Source of the DNA: an uncultured Bacteroidales bacterium
GTDB taxonomy: Bacteria > Bacteroidota > Bacteroidia > Bacteroidales > Bacteroidaceae
Direction: 5' to 3'
Assembly: GCA_902801325.1 (NCBI GenBank)
Contig: CADCHQ010000004.1
Location: forward strand, 62,001 to 126,000
Length of the DNA: 64,000 nucleotides
This document shows positions 3,014-36,768 of the stretch, in pieces. The notes below the pieces were generated by a model. It was not told where the DNA came from. It searched no databases and was given only the letters and a program-made list of their open reading frames with translations. Positions within the stretch are counted from its first letter, which is position 1. Each line of letters opens with the position of its first letter. A program made the position numbers and the translations under genes.

Positions 3014-5830
3014 TCACCTCGCCACAAACTTACGCCCGCGCCTAATTCTTAACCCTTTACCATTTATAATTCTGCGTCCGCTCAAGTCGTACAGCTCTGA
3101 ACCCTGAACTTCGGGCTCTGAGTTGGGGCGAAGCTCCTCAATTCCTGTGAGCGTACCCACGGGGATGATGATGAACTGGTAACTCTTCTCGATGGGGTTA
3201 CTGCTCTTGCCCGTGATGGTGTTGTTGTCGTTGATAGTCCAGAATGCAGTGCCGGCGTCTCCTCCGTTTTGGATAGCCCATTTGCCGCCGTTCTCGTATA
3301 GAGCATAGGAGTTCCAACTGCTGTAGTATGCGTTCTTGTTGATGCTGCCGAACTCGTCGAGGAACTTCAACGAATTCTTAGCCATGGCTATCTTCCATCG
3401 TCCAGATTCGGCATCAGGCGTAATCTTCCATTGTTGGTAGTTGTCTATCGTCTTGTGGGCTTGGAAAGATGGTTTGCTCTCTGCAGCGGGGGAGGATGTG
3501 GTGGTGAGCAGGAGGCTATCGCTGTTCATGATGTAGTAGGCCGTGCTACCGTCCACTATGGGGAAGTCGGGTTGCGAGCCTCCTACGGGGATGATTTCAA
3601 AGATGGCGTTCTCGTAGGAATAGGTCTTAAGATCGGACTGTACGATTCGCGAACCGTTCGTACTCCAATAGTTGGTCTTGGCCTTGTCGGCATTCTGGAT
3701 GGCGTACTTGCCATTAAGACGGTAGATGTTGTAGGTGTGCCAAGCTGGGTCGTAGGGGTTGATGCTCTGGCTTGCCCAGAATGAGCCAACCTCGTTGACG
3801 TATCGTCCGTCCTGCGTGCTCACTATCTTGTAGCGGTTTGTGGTAGCATCGAGGGTGATGGTCCACTCGCACTTCTGAGGTTGTGCATCATCGATGGTGG
3901 CGGTAAGGGTGGGGTAGTCGCCCGTGCGTGTGCTGGAGGCGTTCTTGTTGTAGAGGTATTTCCCATCGACCTTGATGTAGTAGTTGCCATTCTCCAGCAC
4001 CACTACGTCGAAGTTTTCCCATCCTTCCTTGTATTTAGCCTTGTAGTCGACTATCAGCGCGCCCAGTTTCTGCTTTAGGTAAGGAGCAACCTTCTGGTCG
4101 GCAACCACAGGACGAGCACTCTTGACAGAACCTTCGAAGTTGCGACTGATGAGGGCATCCTCTTGTTCGATGAGGGATTTCACTTGCTTGTAGTCGTCGA
4201 GGAATAGCTCGGTGTTGCCGTTGTCGATACATTCCTCCATCTCCAGAAGTAGCACTCCGCGTTGCCCCATCATCTTCATCTTCTGCAACCAAGGTGTTAT
4301 CTCCTTGATGAGGTTGGGGTTGTAGTCGTCGCCAAGCAAGGCATCGGCACTTTGTATCATCTTCTCGAACTGAACCCGGAGTTCCGCCGACGAAGCCGAA
4401 GCATCGAAGTTAGGACTCTCGCCTGTGCGACGGAGACCGTGCGCGGTAGAACCTAGATCGACATTATGTTCGCAGAACACATGGAAGGCTTCCTTCTGCG
4501 TGGGCATGATGGCCGCAATGCCGCGTTCCCAGTTCTGTTCGGGATTGTAGCTCTTCATGTTCCAACTGTAGTCAGCCACGCCAAAGAGGGCCACCTTTGA
4601 AGCCTCGGCATACTCCATGGGATTGCTGGCGAAGGCCGTCATCTTGCTGCCAAACGCGTTATTGCCCTTGTCATTGCCGTAGAACTTACCCATGAGCAAG
4701 TGGCTGATGCAGTAGTCGCTGACGGGGTAGTTGAGCCAAATGAAGGGATAGTGGCCTGTGGCATTCTTGAAGAAGGTGATGTCCGACTCATTAATCATAT
4801 CGACAACACCATCGCCCGTCCACATGATTTCGATGTCCTTGTTCAACTTATCGCGCAAGCCGTTGAGGTAACTGCTGCTGGCGTTCCATCCGGCATAGGC
4901 GGCGTTGTACTGTGTGGGACACATGGACAGGTGTTGCAAGTCGTCGTACTTCTCGATGAAGTTGTCCCAAACGTAGTTCAACTCAGCACTCTGCAACGTG
5001 GCATCGGCACTGCCGAAGTCGTCGAAGAAGATGGAGAAGTTACGCACGCCCAAAGAATAGACATTCTCCAGTTTCGACACTACTGCCTTGAAGTCGGACT
5101 CGCTGTTCGAGATGCTTCCACCTGTGTGGATGGCCCATATGAAGTCGATGTGTCGTTCGCGGGCATAGGAAGCCAGTTCTGCAATGACAGCCCCCTCCTT
5201 GGCAGGGTAGTTGGTGCGCCACTTTGTGCGGTGGTAGGGGTCGTCCTTGGGACCATAGACATAGACGTTCATCTTGTTCGCAGCATAGAAGTCGAACTGA
5301 CGCTTTCGGTCTTCGGTACTCCAGGGATTGCCATAGAAACCTTCAATCACTCCGCGCTGGAGCGTGCTGGGATAGTCCTTGATGGCGACGCACATCACCT
5401 CCTCAGACTGAAGCACCTGCATCAGGGTCTGTGCGGCATAGTAAGTACCAGCCTCGTCACGACCAGCAAGGATGATAGAGTCGGACGTTACCTTGAGATA
5501 GTAGCCTTGTGCTTGTGTGGGGACGAACGATGTGTACTGGGCTATGGCTTCGTCGCCGACTTCGCCCACAGCCAGCACGATACGACCTTCGTCGGAGAAG
5601 TTGAGCGTAGGACGATTATTGGGTGTGATGTCATTCTGTTCGCCCTTCAGTAACTTGATGGCATAGGGATCGGCTGTCTCTGCTCCTACCATGCGATAGG
5701 TGGCTGTTGACCTGTCGAAAGCCTTTTCACCCCACCTTAGTCCTTGAGGCACGGGATTCAGGTCAACTTGCTGAGCAACAACTAATGCATTAGCTAATGC
5801 CAAAAACAGGGCAAACAGCGTCCTTTTCAT
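3014..5830 (-). CDS. GH84 beta-N-acetylglucosaminidase with two C-terminal lectin-like repeats
   Basis: Secreted enzyme removing beta-linked N-acetylglucosamine by substrate-assisted catalysis. After a signal peptide (about residues 1-19, ending VAQ) comes an N-terminal domain, then the GH84 barrel. RGVIEGFYGNPW near residue 160 and the adjacent catalytic aspartates Asp270-Asp271 in FFDDFG are family hallmarks. A helical domain follows. Residues about 625-750 and 760-890 are two copies of a trefoil-like sugar-binding module (each with YYI..., W-I/KIT, YALYENGGKWAIQN-type motifs). A YDLSGR tail ends the 938-residue protein. It is the last gene of a four-gene operon and starts 2 bases after the GH27 stop. 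The substrate may be mucin-type, chitin-derived or another GlcNAc glycan. Confidence 0.92.
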   Translation of the reverse strand: MKRTLFALFLALANALVVAQQVDLNPVPQGLRWGEKAFDRSTATYRMVGAETADPYAIKLLKGEQNDITPNNRPTLNFSDEGRIVLAVGEVGDEAIAQYTSFVPTQAQGYYLKVTSDSIILAGRDEAGTYYAAQTLMQVLQSEEVMCVAIKDYPSTLQRGVIEGFYGNPWSTEDRKRQFDFYAANKMNVYVYGPKDDPYHRTKWRTNYPAKEGAVIAELASYARERHIDFIWAIHTGGSISNSESDFKAVVSKLENVYSLGVRNFSIFFDDFGSADATLQSAELNYVWDNFIEKYDDLQHLSMCPTQYNAAYAGWNASSSYLNGLRDKLNKDIEIMWTGDGVVDMINESDITFFKNATGHYPFIWLNYPVSDYCISHLLMGKFYGNDKGNNAFGSKMTAFASNPMEYAEASKVALFGVADYSWNMKSYNPEQNWERGIAAIMPTQKEAFHVFCEHNVDLGSTAHGLRRTGESPNFDASASSAELRVQFEKMIQSADALLGDDYNPNLIKEITPWLQKMKMMGQRGVLLLEMEECIDNGNTELFLDDYKQVKSLIEQEDALISRNFEGSVKSARPVVADQKVAPYLKQKLGALIVDYKAKYKEGWENFDVVVLENGNYYIKVDGKYLYNKNASSTRTGDYPTLTATIDDAQPQKCEWTITLDATTNRYKIVSTQDGRYVNEVGSFWASQSINPYDPAWHTYNIYRLNGKYAIQNADKAKTNYWSTNGSRIVQSDLKTYSYENAIFEIIPVGGSQPDFPIVDGSTAYYIMNSDSLLLTTTSSPAAESKPSFQAHKTIDNYQQWKITPDAESGRWKIAMAKNSLKFLDEFGSINKNAYYSSWNSYALYENGGKWAIQNGGDAGTAFWTINDNNTITGKSSNPIEKSYQFIIIPVGTLTGIEELRPNSEPEVQGSELYDLSGRRIINGKGLRIRRGRKFVAR

Positions 5831-5832
5831 AC

Positions 5833-7593
5833 TTACTTTGTTATAAAGATACGTCCCTTCTTGATTTTAAGTCCCTTCCTTGTTGCGATAATAGGTCGTC
5901 CGCTTAAGTCATACAATTCTGAACTCTGAACTTTGGACTTGGAACTGGAGCGAAGTTCCCCTATTCCGTCTGCCTCAAGGAGTTCGAGACGCATGTAGTC
6001 CATATCGGGCATCCAGTTTGTGGCGTTGACGATGCGAATGGTGTTCTGTCCTGCATTGAGACGAATCTCTACTGAACGAGTGCCAACCCTGTTCCAACCG
6101 CCTGAGTTCAGGCTGGAGAAGTTCTGGACGCGTTGTCCGTTGACGTAAAGCACAAGCGAACGACTCTCACCGCAGATATAACCCAATGTCAGGCGATAGC
6201 GTCCGCCTGTCTGGCTATATACGTTGCGCCACTCGAGATAGTTGTCATTGCTCTTGCCAAGCCAACCCACCTTGCAACCATCCGAAGCAAAGTCCGCCTC
6301 GTCATAAGTGCCGCTGGGCATGGTTTGGTTGTTCGTAATCTCCTGATAAGTGCCGTTGAAGGCGGTCTCAGCCTCGTAGAGGGTGCGTTCCAAGCGTGTG
6401 TCGGCCACAGCACTATAGATGGCTGTTCCGTGGGCTGGTACGGTGACGGATAGTGTCCCTTCTGCCGTTCCTGCATCTTTCTTCTTGAATAGGTCACGCA
6501 GTTGAATCGTGCCTGCAAGGTCCATCTTCGAGAAGTCCACTTCTACGGTCTTCTCCTCATCGGAAGGGTTATATACAGCGAAGGCACGCTTGTTGCCGTT
6601 TAGCACCTCCACGTCTTTAACCAGCACATAGCAATCGCCTGCGCGCTGGCAAACATAGGCCTGCAAGTGAAGGGGATCTTGGTTGAGTGCGATGAGTTCC
6701 TTATTCTTGAGCAGACTAAGAGTGGCTGTCTTGATGTTGGTCATATCGCATCCGATGAGCAAGGGCGAGGACATGATGCACCACATACCGAAATGTGTCT
6801 GGTCCTCAATGTTGCTCATGGAACGGCCAACCTCCAGCATGTCCATATCGTTGTACCGACCATCGTGGCAGTAAGCAGAGAGGTAGAGGTTCTCATGCAA
6901 TATGCCCTTGACGCTGTTCCATCCGTCGTAGATGTCACCTGTGGTTCGCCATGAGAAGGCAACATCGGAAATCCACGTGCCAGGATAGGCCCAACGGCAA
7001 GCGTTCATACGTACATCGGTGCGTCCCGTATTCTTGATGGCTTGGGCAATGGAGGTATAACGCTCGCGCTCGTCCAGTTTCAGTCGGGCTTCGTTGTGGA
7101 TGGGGTCGCCACCACAGAAGTCCACCTTGATGAAGTCGAATCCCAACTCCTTGAAGAAGAAATCGGCATCTTGCTGGTCGTGTTCATACAGACCCACATT
7201 GGCGGCAATCTTATCACCACCATGATAGCATCCGCAAGTGCTGTGTCCGGCATCGGAGTATATGCCAGCCTTTAAGCCTTTGGAGTGGATATAGTCGACA
7301 ATCCCTTTCAAACCATTGGGGAAACGAGTGGGGTGGATGAGCAACTGCCCCGTCTCCTCGTCGCGACCTCCAAAGTATCCGTCGTCGATGTTGATGTACT
7401 GAAAACCTACGCCCTTCAAGCCTTTCCCTACCATAGCAACGGCCTGCTTGCGGATGAGGTCTTCATTAATATTCAAACCGTAGGTGTTCCACGAACTCCA
7501 TCCCATGGTCGGGCCTTCATCGTATACTGTTTCTTGAGCCATCACAGGGAGGCTTAAAAAGGAGAGTAGAAGTAAACTTTTAATGCGTTTCAT
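5833..7593 (-). CDS. GH27 alpha-galactosidase with C-terminal CBM35-like domain
   Basis: Secreted alpha-galactosidase (586 residues) removing terminal alpha-galactose. It has a signal peptide ending at about residue 19 (VMAQ). The GH27 barrel shows GWSSWNTYG at 31, INIDDGYF near 68, the nucleophile Asp158 in FIKVDFCGGD and the acid/base Asp220 in TTGDIYDGW. A beta-sandwich domain follows, and residues about 400-535 form a CBM35/CBM6-like carbohydrate-binding module (YEAE..., ...RIVNATNWMPDMDYMRL). A short YDLSGR...KG tail ends it. The gene starts 20 bases behind GH31 and is followed after 2 bases by GH84, so the three are probably co-transcribed. Confidence 0.93.
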   Translation of the reverse strand: MKRIKSLLLLSFLSLPVMAQETVYDEGPTMGWSSWNTYGLNINEDLIRKQAVAMVGKGLKGVGFQYINIDDGYFGGRDEETGQLLIHPTRFPNGLKGIVDYIHSKGLKAGIYSDAGHSTCGCYHGGDKIAANVGLYEHDQQDADFFFKELGFDFIKVDFCGGDPIHNEARLKLDERERYTSIAQAIKNTGRTDVRMNACRWAYPGTWISDVAFSWRTTGDIYDGWNSVKGILHENLYLSAYCHDGRYNDMDMLEVGRSMSNIEDQTHFGMWCIMSSPLLIGCDMTNIKTATLSLLKNKELIALNQDPLHLQAYVCQRAGDCYVLVKDVEVLNGNKRAFAVYNPSDEEKTVEVDFSKMDLAGTIQLRDLFKKKDAGTAEGTLSVTVPAHGTAIYSAVADTRLERTLYEAETAFNGTYQEITNNQTMPSGTYDEADFASDGCKVGWLGKSNDNYLEWRNVYSQTGGRYRLTLGYICGESRSLVLYVNGQRVQNFSSLNSGGWNRVGTRSVEIRLNAGQNTIRIVNATNWMPDMDYMRLELLEADGIGELRSSSKSKVQSSELYDLSGRPIIATRKGLKIKKGRIFITK

Positions 7594-35150: not shown

Positions 35151-35160
35151 CCTCTGTAAA

Positions 35161-35262
35161 GACGTACATCTTACATCCGAAAGATGTACGTCTTACAAAT
35201 GAAGGATGTACGTCTTATAGCCTAAAGATGTACGTCTTACACGTAAAAGATGTACGTCTTAC
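35161..35262 (+). repeat. 22-base tandem repeat (GATGTACGTCTTA)
   Basis: Copies of gatgtacgtctta at 35183, 35205, 35227 and 35249 (exact 22-base period), preceded by one inverted copy (gacgtacatctta at 35161). Unit core AAGATGTACGTCTT is nearly palindromic. After it, 35270-35345 has the hairpin ATGGC-gttttt-GCCAT and a repeated 'ttatacaagca'. Confidence 0.8.
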
Positions 35263-35339
35263 ACCAAAAGCGCAATGGCGTTTTTGCCATAGATTATACA
35301 AGCAAGCGCTCAAGGTTATACAAGCATCGCCCCCGGACT

Positions 35340-35669: not shown

Positions 35670-35677
35670 TATCTTTG
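35670..35677 (+). promoter_or_regulatory. -7 box before the structured RNA
   Basis: TATCTTTG, with a weak -33 match TTGC 19 bases upstream (35647-35650). Transcription from about 35684 would include the whole structured region and could continue into the dockerin gene. Confidence 0.6.
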
Positions 35678-35683
35678 CACCGT

Positions 35684-35940
35684 GGGATTTGTCTCATTAT
35701 GCAGTAGCGACTGCGTATCTTATCGGAAATAAAAGAAGCGTTATGCTCGTCTTTACAAACAGAAACCTGGTAAGTTTCAAATTACGAACAAGAGATGACA
35801 TGACAGCTTCACGCGTATGCGTGGGCTGATATCTTTACATCTGTTCGTAGGGTTTTACCAGGACCTCTGTTTGAAGGTGTGAACATACAGTTCCACGCTT
35901 CTCACGTTAATAAAGGTTCTCCGTGGGGCTGGGAGGACAG
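35684..35940 (+). ncRNA. Strongly structured RNA candidate (leader or stand-alone RNA)
   Basis: Nested perfect helices form one long rod: GAAGCGT 35735-35741 with 35895-35901; CAAACAG 35756-35762 with 35867-35873; CCTGGTAA 35766-35773 with 35855-35862; TACGAACA 35783-35790 with 35842-35849; GATG 35794-35797 with 35838-35841; CAGC 35804-35807 with 35825-35828; CACGC-gtat-GCGTG at 35810-35823. The first and second helices are separated by a large asymmetric bubble (14 and 21 bases). A separate hairpin GCAGT-agcg-ACTGC lies at 35701-35714. A rod with a bubble behind a promoter recalls 6S RNA and the Bacteroidales-1 motif, but I recognise no conserved sequence. The alternative is a riboswitch-like leader of the dockerin gene, whose ATG is 8 bases downstream; no T-rich terminator is seen. 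Confidence 0.6.
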
Positions 35941-35948
35941 ATAATGTC

Positions 35949-36725
35949 ATGAAAACAAAAGCATTATTTCTTTCTATCGTAGCACTATTGATGAGTGCAA
36001 CCCTGAGTGCCCAAACCATCATAAAGGGCGACATGAACGATGACAAACAGGTGAGCATTGCCGATGTCACCTCTTTAGTAAACGTAATTTTGGGCAAGGC
36101 GCCAATAGAGACGTTAAGTGTGGACTGTGAACCTTATAAGGTGGATAATAGTCTCGTAGTAGGCACATGGTATGCTCCTGATGGAACGTCGTTCATGTTC
36201 AATGCGGATGGAACGACAACGTTTCCTTATGGCGCGACTTATGAATTTATGCCCATACAGGGCCGTCTGCTGGTATACGATGCTGCAAATAAGCCAGTGA
36301 AGGTGTTACCCATACTGAAAGCAGAGTCGGAGTTCTTGTTGACTGTGGACTATGCCACAAGCCACTTTACTTATTACACTAAATCTAATCCGGTTGAACC
36401 ACAAGATAATAATATTTATTATGGGGTAACTACTACGGAAATTAATTCATCTAATTATAATTCATTTGATGGAGTAAATAGTGTATCATCTATTGATGAA
36501 ATACCTAATATATTATTAAATGTAACAACATTAGGTAAATATTATATTTTATTACCAGAACAATATGAACCAGAAGTAAATGCTAGTGGTGATTATACAG
36601 TAATTACTAAAAAATCAACTTCTATTCCTGGACATAATGTATATTTAACTGGTAGAATTGGTGCTGGTGTAGTAATTAGTAAAGTAGATGTAGGAACTTC
36701 TCAATCACAAATTGATAATGAATAA
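35949..36725 (+). CDS. Secreted dockerin-type protein with chimeric AT-rich C-terminal part
   Basis: Secreted protein of 258 residues. Signal peptide 1-21 (LLMSATLSAQ), then one dockerin-like calcium-binding segment (KGDMNDDKQVSIADVTSLVNVIL, about 25-48), then a lipocalin-like beta domain (LVVGTWYAPDGTSFMFNADG...LLVYDAANKPVKVLPILKAESEFLLTVDY) to about residue 145. From base 36380-36400 the composition falls to about 27% G+C (81 of 300 bases in 36421-36720), with AT-ending codons, and the protein becomes NIYYGVTTTEINSSNYNSF...KYYILLPEQYEP, which has the look of a phage tail-fibre module. The function is unknown. The 3' part may be transferred DNA or an assembly join. Confidence 0.7.
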   Translation: MKTKALFLSIVALLMSATLSAQTIIKGDMNDDKQVSIADVTSLVNVILGKAPIETLSVDCEPYKVDNSLVVGTWYAPDGTSFMFNADGTTTFPYGATYEFMPIQGRLLVYDAANKPVKVLPILKAESEFLLTVDYATSHFTYYTKSNPVEPQDNNIYYGVTTTEINSSNYNSFDGVNSVSSIDEIPNILLNVTTLGKYYILLPEQYEPEVNASGDYTVITKKSTSIPGHNVYLTGRIGAGVVISKVDVGTSQSQIDNE

Positions 36726-36768
36726 AAATATATAATTAAAAAATATATGGCAAAATATACTAATGGTC
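36380..36768. other. AT-rich island with foreign composition
   Basis: Codes for the last about 110 residues of the dockerin protein, then 'aattaaaaaatatatggcaaaatatactaatgg', which looks like the start of a further gene (MAKYTNG) cut off at the stop codon of rlmH. Composition and codon choice differ sharply from both sides. Confidence 0.65.

Follow-up and report, generated by a model that had tools for sequence, protein, structure and literature searches.

A predicted pseudoknotted RNA upstream of a Bacteroidales dockerin gene, one copy of a probable family of cis-acting leaders

The window, as the term is used here, is the whole stretch of DNA that was analysed, i.e., 64,000 nucleotides from an uncultured Bacteroidales bacterium. 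Near its middle is an open reading frame encoding 258 amino acids, with a signal-peptide-like start and, at approximately residues 26-50, a dockerin-like repeat. The dockerin call is made from the sequence GDMNDDKQVSIADVTSLVNVILG, Pfam supplying for the same product only a sub-threshold match to DUF6287. The 3' part of the gene (36390-36750) drops in GC content from approximately 45-49% to 23-25%, and for the protein segment encoded there no match exists among 138 other genomes of the genus; either foreign sequence was fused on recently or two sequences were joined in assembly. Upstream of the gene are a promoter-like box and a long structured RNA and, further upstream still, at 35158-35270, is an intergenic 22-bp unit, AAAGATGTACGTCTTACACCA, repeated about five times. 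The features of the locus are these:

35670 to 35677, + strand: promoter -7 box TATCTTTG, of the Bacteroidetes TAnnTTTG form, predicted from sequence and from TAnnTTTG upstream in relatives
35684 to 35717, + strand: two short 5' hairpins, a variable 5' module at the predicted 5' end of the RNA (own fold z only -1.7)
35735 to 35901, + strand: conserved rod, as delimited by fold, covariation, and covariance model R1
35735 to 35741 with 35895 to 35901, + strand: rod helix P1
35742 to 35745 with 35884 to 35887, + strand: rod helix P1b
35757 to 35763 with 35866 to 35872, + strand: rod helix P2
35766 to 35773 with 35855 to 35862, + strand: rod helix P3
35783 to 35790 with 35842 to 35849, + strand: rod helix P4, lineage-variable
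35810 to 35814 with 35819 to 35823, + strand: apical rod hairpin P6
35888 to 35894, + strand: CAGTTCC, 5' strand of a pseudoknot, bulged from P1/P1b, by comparative pairing
35917 to 35937, + strand: 3' hairpin P5, with all five stem pairs changing on both sides among copies; GGGGCTG (35925-35931), the loop of this hairpin, serves as 3' strand of the pseudoknot
35949 to 36725, + strand: the downstream, dockerin-type open reading frame

An earlier note had described a strongly folding rod behind a short sequence box and upstream of a dockerin gene, and this description is borne out. The minimum free energy of 35684-35940 is -86.4 kcal/mol versus -64.3 +/- 4.9 kcal/mol for dinucleotide shuffles (z -4.5) and, as none of 200 such shuffles did as well, the low likelihood of this fold by composition alone holds too. 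The rod, at approximately 35735-35900 (166 nt), folds as nested helices capped by an apical hairpin (CACGC/GCGTG), and the four helices of seven to eight pairs that had been claimed for it are indeed there. Two of these are of 7 bp (GAAGCGT/ACGCTTC and AAACAGA/TCTGTTT) and two of 8 bp (CCTGGTAA/TTACCAGG and TACGAACA/TGTTCGTA), with shorter helices besides. The box is found approximately 57 nt 5' of the rod, and the ATG at 35949 follows the rod's end by 48 nt. A large central bubble is present, as the note had stated, but it is not the conserved core, which consists instead of flanking helices along with specific loop sequences. Missed by the note were both the two 5' hairpins (35684-35717) and the 3' hairpin (35917-35937), the latter with its pseudoknot to 35888-35894. 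As these structures fall outside of the rod, the unit as a whole spans promoter through start codon.

A plain DNA search located further copies of this RNA in the window's own genome as well as in 14 others of the genus and one from another family, for a total of 16 of 61 genomes. Covariance model R1, which scores the window rod (35735-35900) at 160.5 bits, finds copies in 114 of 139 genomes of the genus, 169 of 251 of the family (22 of 30 genera), 61 of 218 of the order, and 6 of 247 within a phylum sample, most genomes searched being MAGs; four of the last six are of the same class but outside of the window's family. The broader model R2 finds copies in 72 of 198 genomes of the order at E<=1e-5, with E-values rough wherever calibrations were short. 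With more candidates scored, R2 returns 10-25 copies per genome in seven chosen genomes. Named MAGs with copies include Prevotella, Muribaculaceae, Alistipes, Tidjanibacter, and Ca. Aphodosoma, and among other records with copies are Bacteroides finegoldii, Parabacteroides distasonis, and Phocaeicola massiliensis plasmids. The same RNA thus heads many unrelated genes, most of them for surface or secreted proteins, in gut and rumen Bacteroidales. Model R1 also returns a weak reverse-strand match in the window (28.6 bits), read as a near-palindrome of the rod.

Rods of the family start with GAAGCGUUAUGCUC and finish with CAGNNCCACGCUUC. P1 pairs GAAGCGU with ACGCUUC, P2 plus P3 make up the lower half of the rod, P4 differs by lineage, and the apical hairpin strand GCGUGG is almost invariant across copies. 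The alignment of homologues that the earlier note had proposed shows pairing to be kept via compensatory changes rather than lost. Thus, among the 28 copies of a first alignment, 13 of 25 predicted pairs display two-sided compensatory changes. Among 36 diverse copies, chosen for at least 6 of 7 pseudoknot pairs, 89% of cells are paired versus at most 50% once partners are slid. Pairs changing on both sides in this same alignment number 26 of 51, with P1 nonetheless fixed since the pattern used to fetch many of the copies itself included P1. Cells with two-sided changes come to 228 there, as compared with 80 following shuffling and with at most 75 following sliding by 1-3 columns.

It is the 3' hairpin that ties the rod to the start of the gene. 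The loop of P5, GGNNCUG, pairs with CAGNNCC, seven bases bulged from P1/P1b, and the result is a pseudoknot. All seven of its pairs are intact in 96 of 156 copies, these taken without selection for pairing, versus a mean of 46 and a maximum of 62 upon exchange of partners between copies, and versus 3 upon shuffling of letters. Variants include CAGAGCC/GGCUCUG, CAGCUCC/GGAGCUG, and CUGUUCC/GGAACAG, along with a lineage-specific version, AAGUCCC/GGGACUU. For 74 divergent copies, a copy's own pseudoknot pairing exceeds that of every shuffle, even when shuffling is within genomes. Some copies, L221 for example, have no P5 hairpin or are spaced differently. Compensatory changes back both rod and pseudoknot as the predicted structure.

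Placement relative to genes is similarly regular. A TAnnTTTG sequence is found 20-120 nt 5' of the core in 140 of 152 relatives versus 6 of 137 in a control window, these relatives not being phylogenetically independent and the evidence being of a promoter-like box, with the start site predicted from sequence. Between rod and first start codon, 94 of 147 copies have 45-64 nt and another 31 have 70-84 nt; from the end of the pseudoknot loop to the AUG the median is 25 nt. An extra GCC(N)GACA hairpin lies between P5 and AUG in 17 of 120 copies examined, and spacing in these is longer. A conserved GTTGYGCCCGACACGNATNAGGG hairpin occurs between P5 and AUG in the longer-spaced leaders L143, L145, L153, L168, L185, and L018. 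The order seen comparatively is thus promoter box, variable 5' hairpins, P1-closed rod, and then a pseudoknot to a hairpin approximately 20-30 nt before the AUG. Promoter box, AUG spacing, and loop position together place the RNA at the predicted 5' ends of mRNAs. With a box directly upstream on the same strand, a conserved start-codon position, and a covarying structure, the element likely is a cis-acting 5' leader RNA, and its near-constant spacing from the AUG along with its covarying pseudoknot would imply action, via that pseudoknot, on translation initiation. Of the 'new riboswitch-like leader' suggested by the earlier note, it is therefore the leader that stands (promoter, AUG spacing, gene linkage, and pseudoknot by the start), with the ligand putative.

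What these leaders precede is diverse. The 124 first downstream proteins fall into 63 Pfam families, led by LRR_5 (BspA-type LRR; 12), Big_2 (10), and dockerin (6), with the remainder scattered (e.g., HSDR_N, TerB, and trypsin). No common pathway emerges by Pfam from these 124 proteins and so, unlike with most riboswitches, no ligand is suggested. Signal-peptide-like N-termini, as called by a simple heuristic, are seen in 75 of 112 downstream genes versus 104 of 468 other genes of the same loci, i.e., they are three-fold enriched, with about a third of downstream genes lacking one. Given 63 families and this enrichment, what the downstream genes have in common is a cell address rather more than a function. 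One HSDR_N-type, nuclease-like gene (MDFKDSI...) is repeatedly headed by the RNA, in the IMG/VR loci L189, L190, L191, L192, and L193 as well as in L043, L068, L070, L126, L138, and L155, short contigs classed as viral being among these. The idea of a defence-operon leader was dropped since PADLOC yields scattered single matches with no defence theme, and PHROGs tail/Ig matches downstream are taken as generic domains.

On comparative grounds we lean toward viewing the window element as the 5' leader of the dockerin mRNA and as a member of a large and seemingly undescribed family of Bacteroidales cis-acting leaders, the RNA in that case probably being a shared control element. The rod would bind a common signal, whether a small molecule or an RNA-binding protein. 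That binding would set whether the P1/pseudoknot arrangement forms, and the state of that arrangement would in turn control the ease with which ribosomes load onto the stretch before the AUG. As CAGNNCCACGC is able to pair with the nearly invariant apical strand GCGUGGNCUG, a two-state switch, with these as alternative pairings, is plausible. Own pairs are complementary at -17.0 kcal/mol versus -16.1 kcal/mol for exchanged ones (0 of 100 shuffles), and at -15.7 versus -15.2 kcal/mol within genomes for the divergent set, this signal being confounded by relatedness. In genome G419 the alternative apical pairing stops at GCGUGG. A terminator-like switch is not visible.

A quite different possibility is that the leader senses nothing and instead stabilizes the mRNAs of accessory and secreted-protein genes, or makes ribosome loading on them efficient, in bacteria which rely little on Shine-Dalgarno pairing. 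Both the functional unrelatedness of downstream genes and the near-constant distance to the AUG would be expected, as too would a P5 that does not mask a Shine-Dalgarno sequence. Indeed, masking via a GGAGG in P5 was rejected as the P5 stem varies freely, with two-sided changes in 5 of 5 pairs, and as many variants lack GGAGG. Rod loops and the apical GCGUGG are conserved, however, far beyond the needs of a stabilizing hairpin, and it is solely a subset of genes, up to 25 per genome, that carry the RNA, leaving constitutive action unlikely. An improbable further candidate is processive antitermination, in which polymerase is modified and so escapes Rho or intrinsic termination, as with put, EAR/epsC, or RfaH/LoaP targets. 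The RNA does sit at the predicted transcript start, the genes that follow are accessory and horizontally acquired, and EAR too is a structured antitermination leader possessing a pseudoknot. Such a role nevertheless would not require so tight an AUG spacing, and many copies precede single short genes. Relative to put and EAR/epsC leaders (epsC is RF01735; PMC2864571), the RNA described here likewise is a structured leader, but one with no Rfam match, with tight AUG spacing, and in different taxa.

Rod form with internal bubble might point instead to an independent, trans-acting non-coding RNA whose location 5' of a gene is incidental, and the earlier note had indeed put forward a 6S/Bacteroidales-1-type RNA. 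6S and 6S-Flavo (RF00013, RF01685) are likewise long rods, with an internal bubble, behind their own promoter. The search that the note recommended against the Rfam models for 6S, Bacteroidales-1, and 6S-Flavo finds no match to the window element, however, even at an E of 10 over its local 391 bases. Nor is this RNA free-standing, in one or a few copies, and without a tie to genes. Its up to 25 copies stand near-fixed before AUGs, with the offset near-constant in unrelated contexts, and the conserved 3' hairpin, pseudoknotted to the rod, adjoins the AUG. 6S RNA thus is rejected, and trans action generally is very improbable. Self-spreading is quite improbable as well, that is, a mobile-element or gene-cassette RNA, or a recombination site, by which the unit multiplies or captures adjacent genes. 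What invites this reading, besides copy number, is that copies within genome G000 are approximately 80% alike from promoter to AUG amid unrelated flanks. In addition, the 5' module, i.e., the one or two hairpins between promoter and rod that differ between genomes, is closer within genomes than between (identity of 0.70 versus 0.59; 0.556 versus 0.546 for coding sequence). Copies also occur on plasmids, on IMG/VR contigs, and, in the case of L221, on an element bearing a site-specific integrase, and odd small open reading frames intervene between RNA and gene in L021, L022, L023, and L040. Flank comparison within G000 and G012 reveals no common boundary 3' of the AUG, however, while promoter, strand, and start-codon spacing all are kept, the pseudoknot at the translation start shows compensatory changes, and one gene family (P0001; ~50% identical) retains the RNA at its gene start across several bacterial families. 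Selection on a functional unit together with duplication and gene conversion explains the copy pattern without an autonomous element, and the earlier note's mobile-element RNA in its own right finds no support, notwithstanding that copies ride on plasmids and integrative elements. A reading as integron attC (GCGTTATGC plus hairpin) was set aside because a leader accounts for the promoter, the spacing to the AUG, and the covariation.

Cyclic di-GMP riboswitches also are found in leader positions, in several copies per genome, and ahead of diverse genes, including ones for surface proteins. In position, copy number, and gene diversity the leader RNA thus is similar to them, though it lacks an Rfam match, has another structure, and shows no terminator. 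More generally, a search of the whole window against Rfam 15 at curated thresholds returns nothing beyond tRNAs, and a search of the local 391 bases at E up to 10 gives no match for the window element; chance-level matches to mir-1473 and RAGATH-16 in permissive searches were rejected. Bacteroidales-1 (RF01693), a Bacteroidales structured RNA without settled function (PMC2864571), shares host order and structured nature with the leader RNA, but the latter has no RF01693 match. The DUF805/DUF805b motifs (clan CL00115, RF02914) are likewise short, structured, and cis-regulatory ahead of genes, with DUF805b, however, a 35-nt model that falls outside of the rod. In L304, DUF805b reaches 33.5 bits, below its cut-off of 35.6, at 2358-2394 on the - strand, right after the leader RNA and before the gene, so that two cis-regulatory modules may stand there in tandem; neither the window element nor 14 other divergent loci searched have such a match. 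No description of the element was found in the literature, supplements aside, where it may be present as an unlabelled prediction, e.g., among the candidates of PMC8040213.

It could just as readily prove true as not that this is a major new cis-regulatory class, i.e., a ~250-nt pseudoknotted leader which, in a large share of Bacteroidales genomes and at up to ~25 loci per genome, places unrelated secreted, surface, and accessory genes under a common RNA-sensed signal. Many gut and rumen communities are dominated by Bacteroidales, in which the regulation of the large repertoires of surface adhesins, lipoproteins, and acquired genes is, to our knowledge, little understood. A leader common to as many as 25 unrelated genes per genome would, if real, amount to a hidden regulon and possibly to a new sensor class, with the predicted structure and mutable pseudoknot providing a genetic handle for finding the leader's signal. 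It is, in addition, a large, well-covarying RNA family that is missing from Rfam 15.

The RNA does not always travel with its gene. No RNA is seen with either of the best homologues of the dockerin gene in the window (54% identical in G101, 52% in G066), and that of G066 possesses instead a plain short leader behind TAATTTTG, implying that the RNA is gained and lost as a module. Among the copies of G000 and G012 (L001, L021-L029), the 5' module is near-alike per genome whereas short and long rod types cross genomes, and such a pattern suggests that the 5' hairpin either has undergone gene conversion or has a partner specific to the species. The small, unrelated open reading frames of L021, L022, L023, and L040, for which the RNA lies at 2433-2701, 5958-6215, 5469-5774, and 4399-4615, respectively, encode approximately 90-213 amino acids and look as if inserted between leader and secreted-protein gene.
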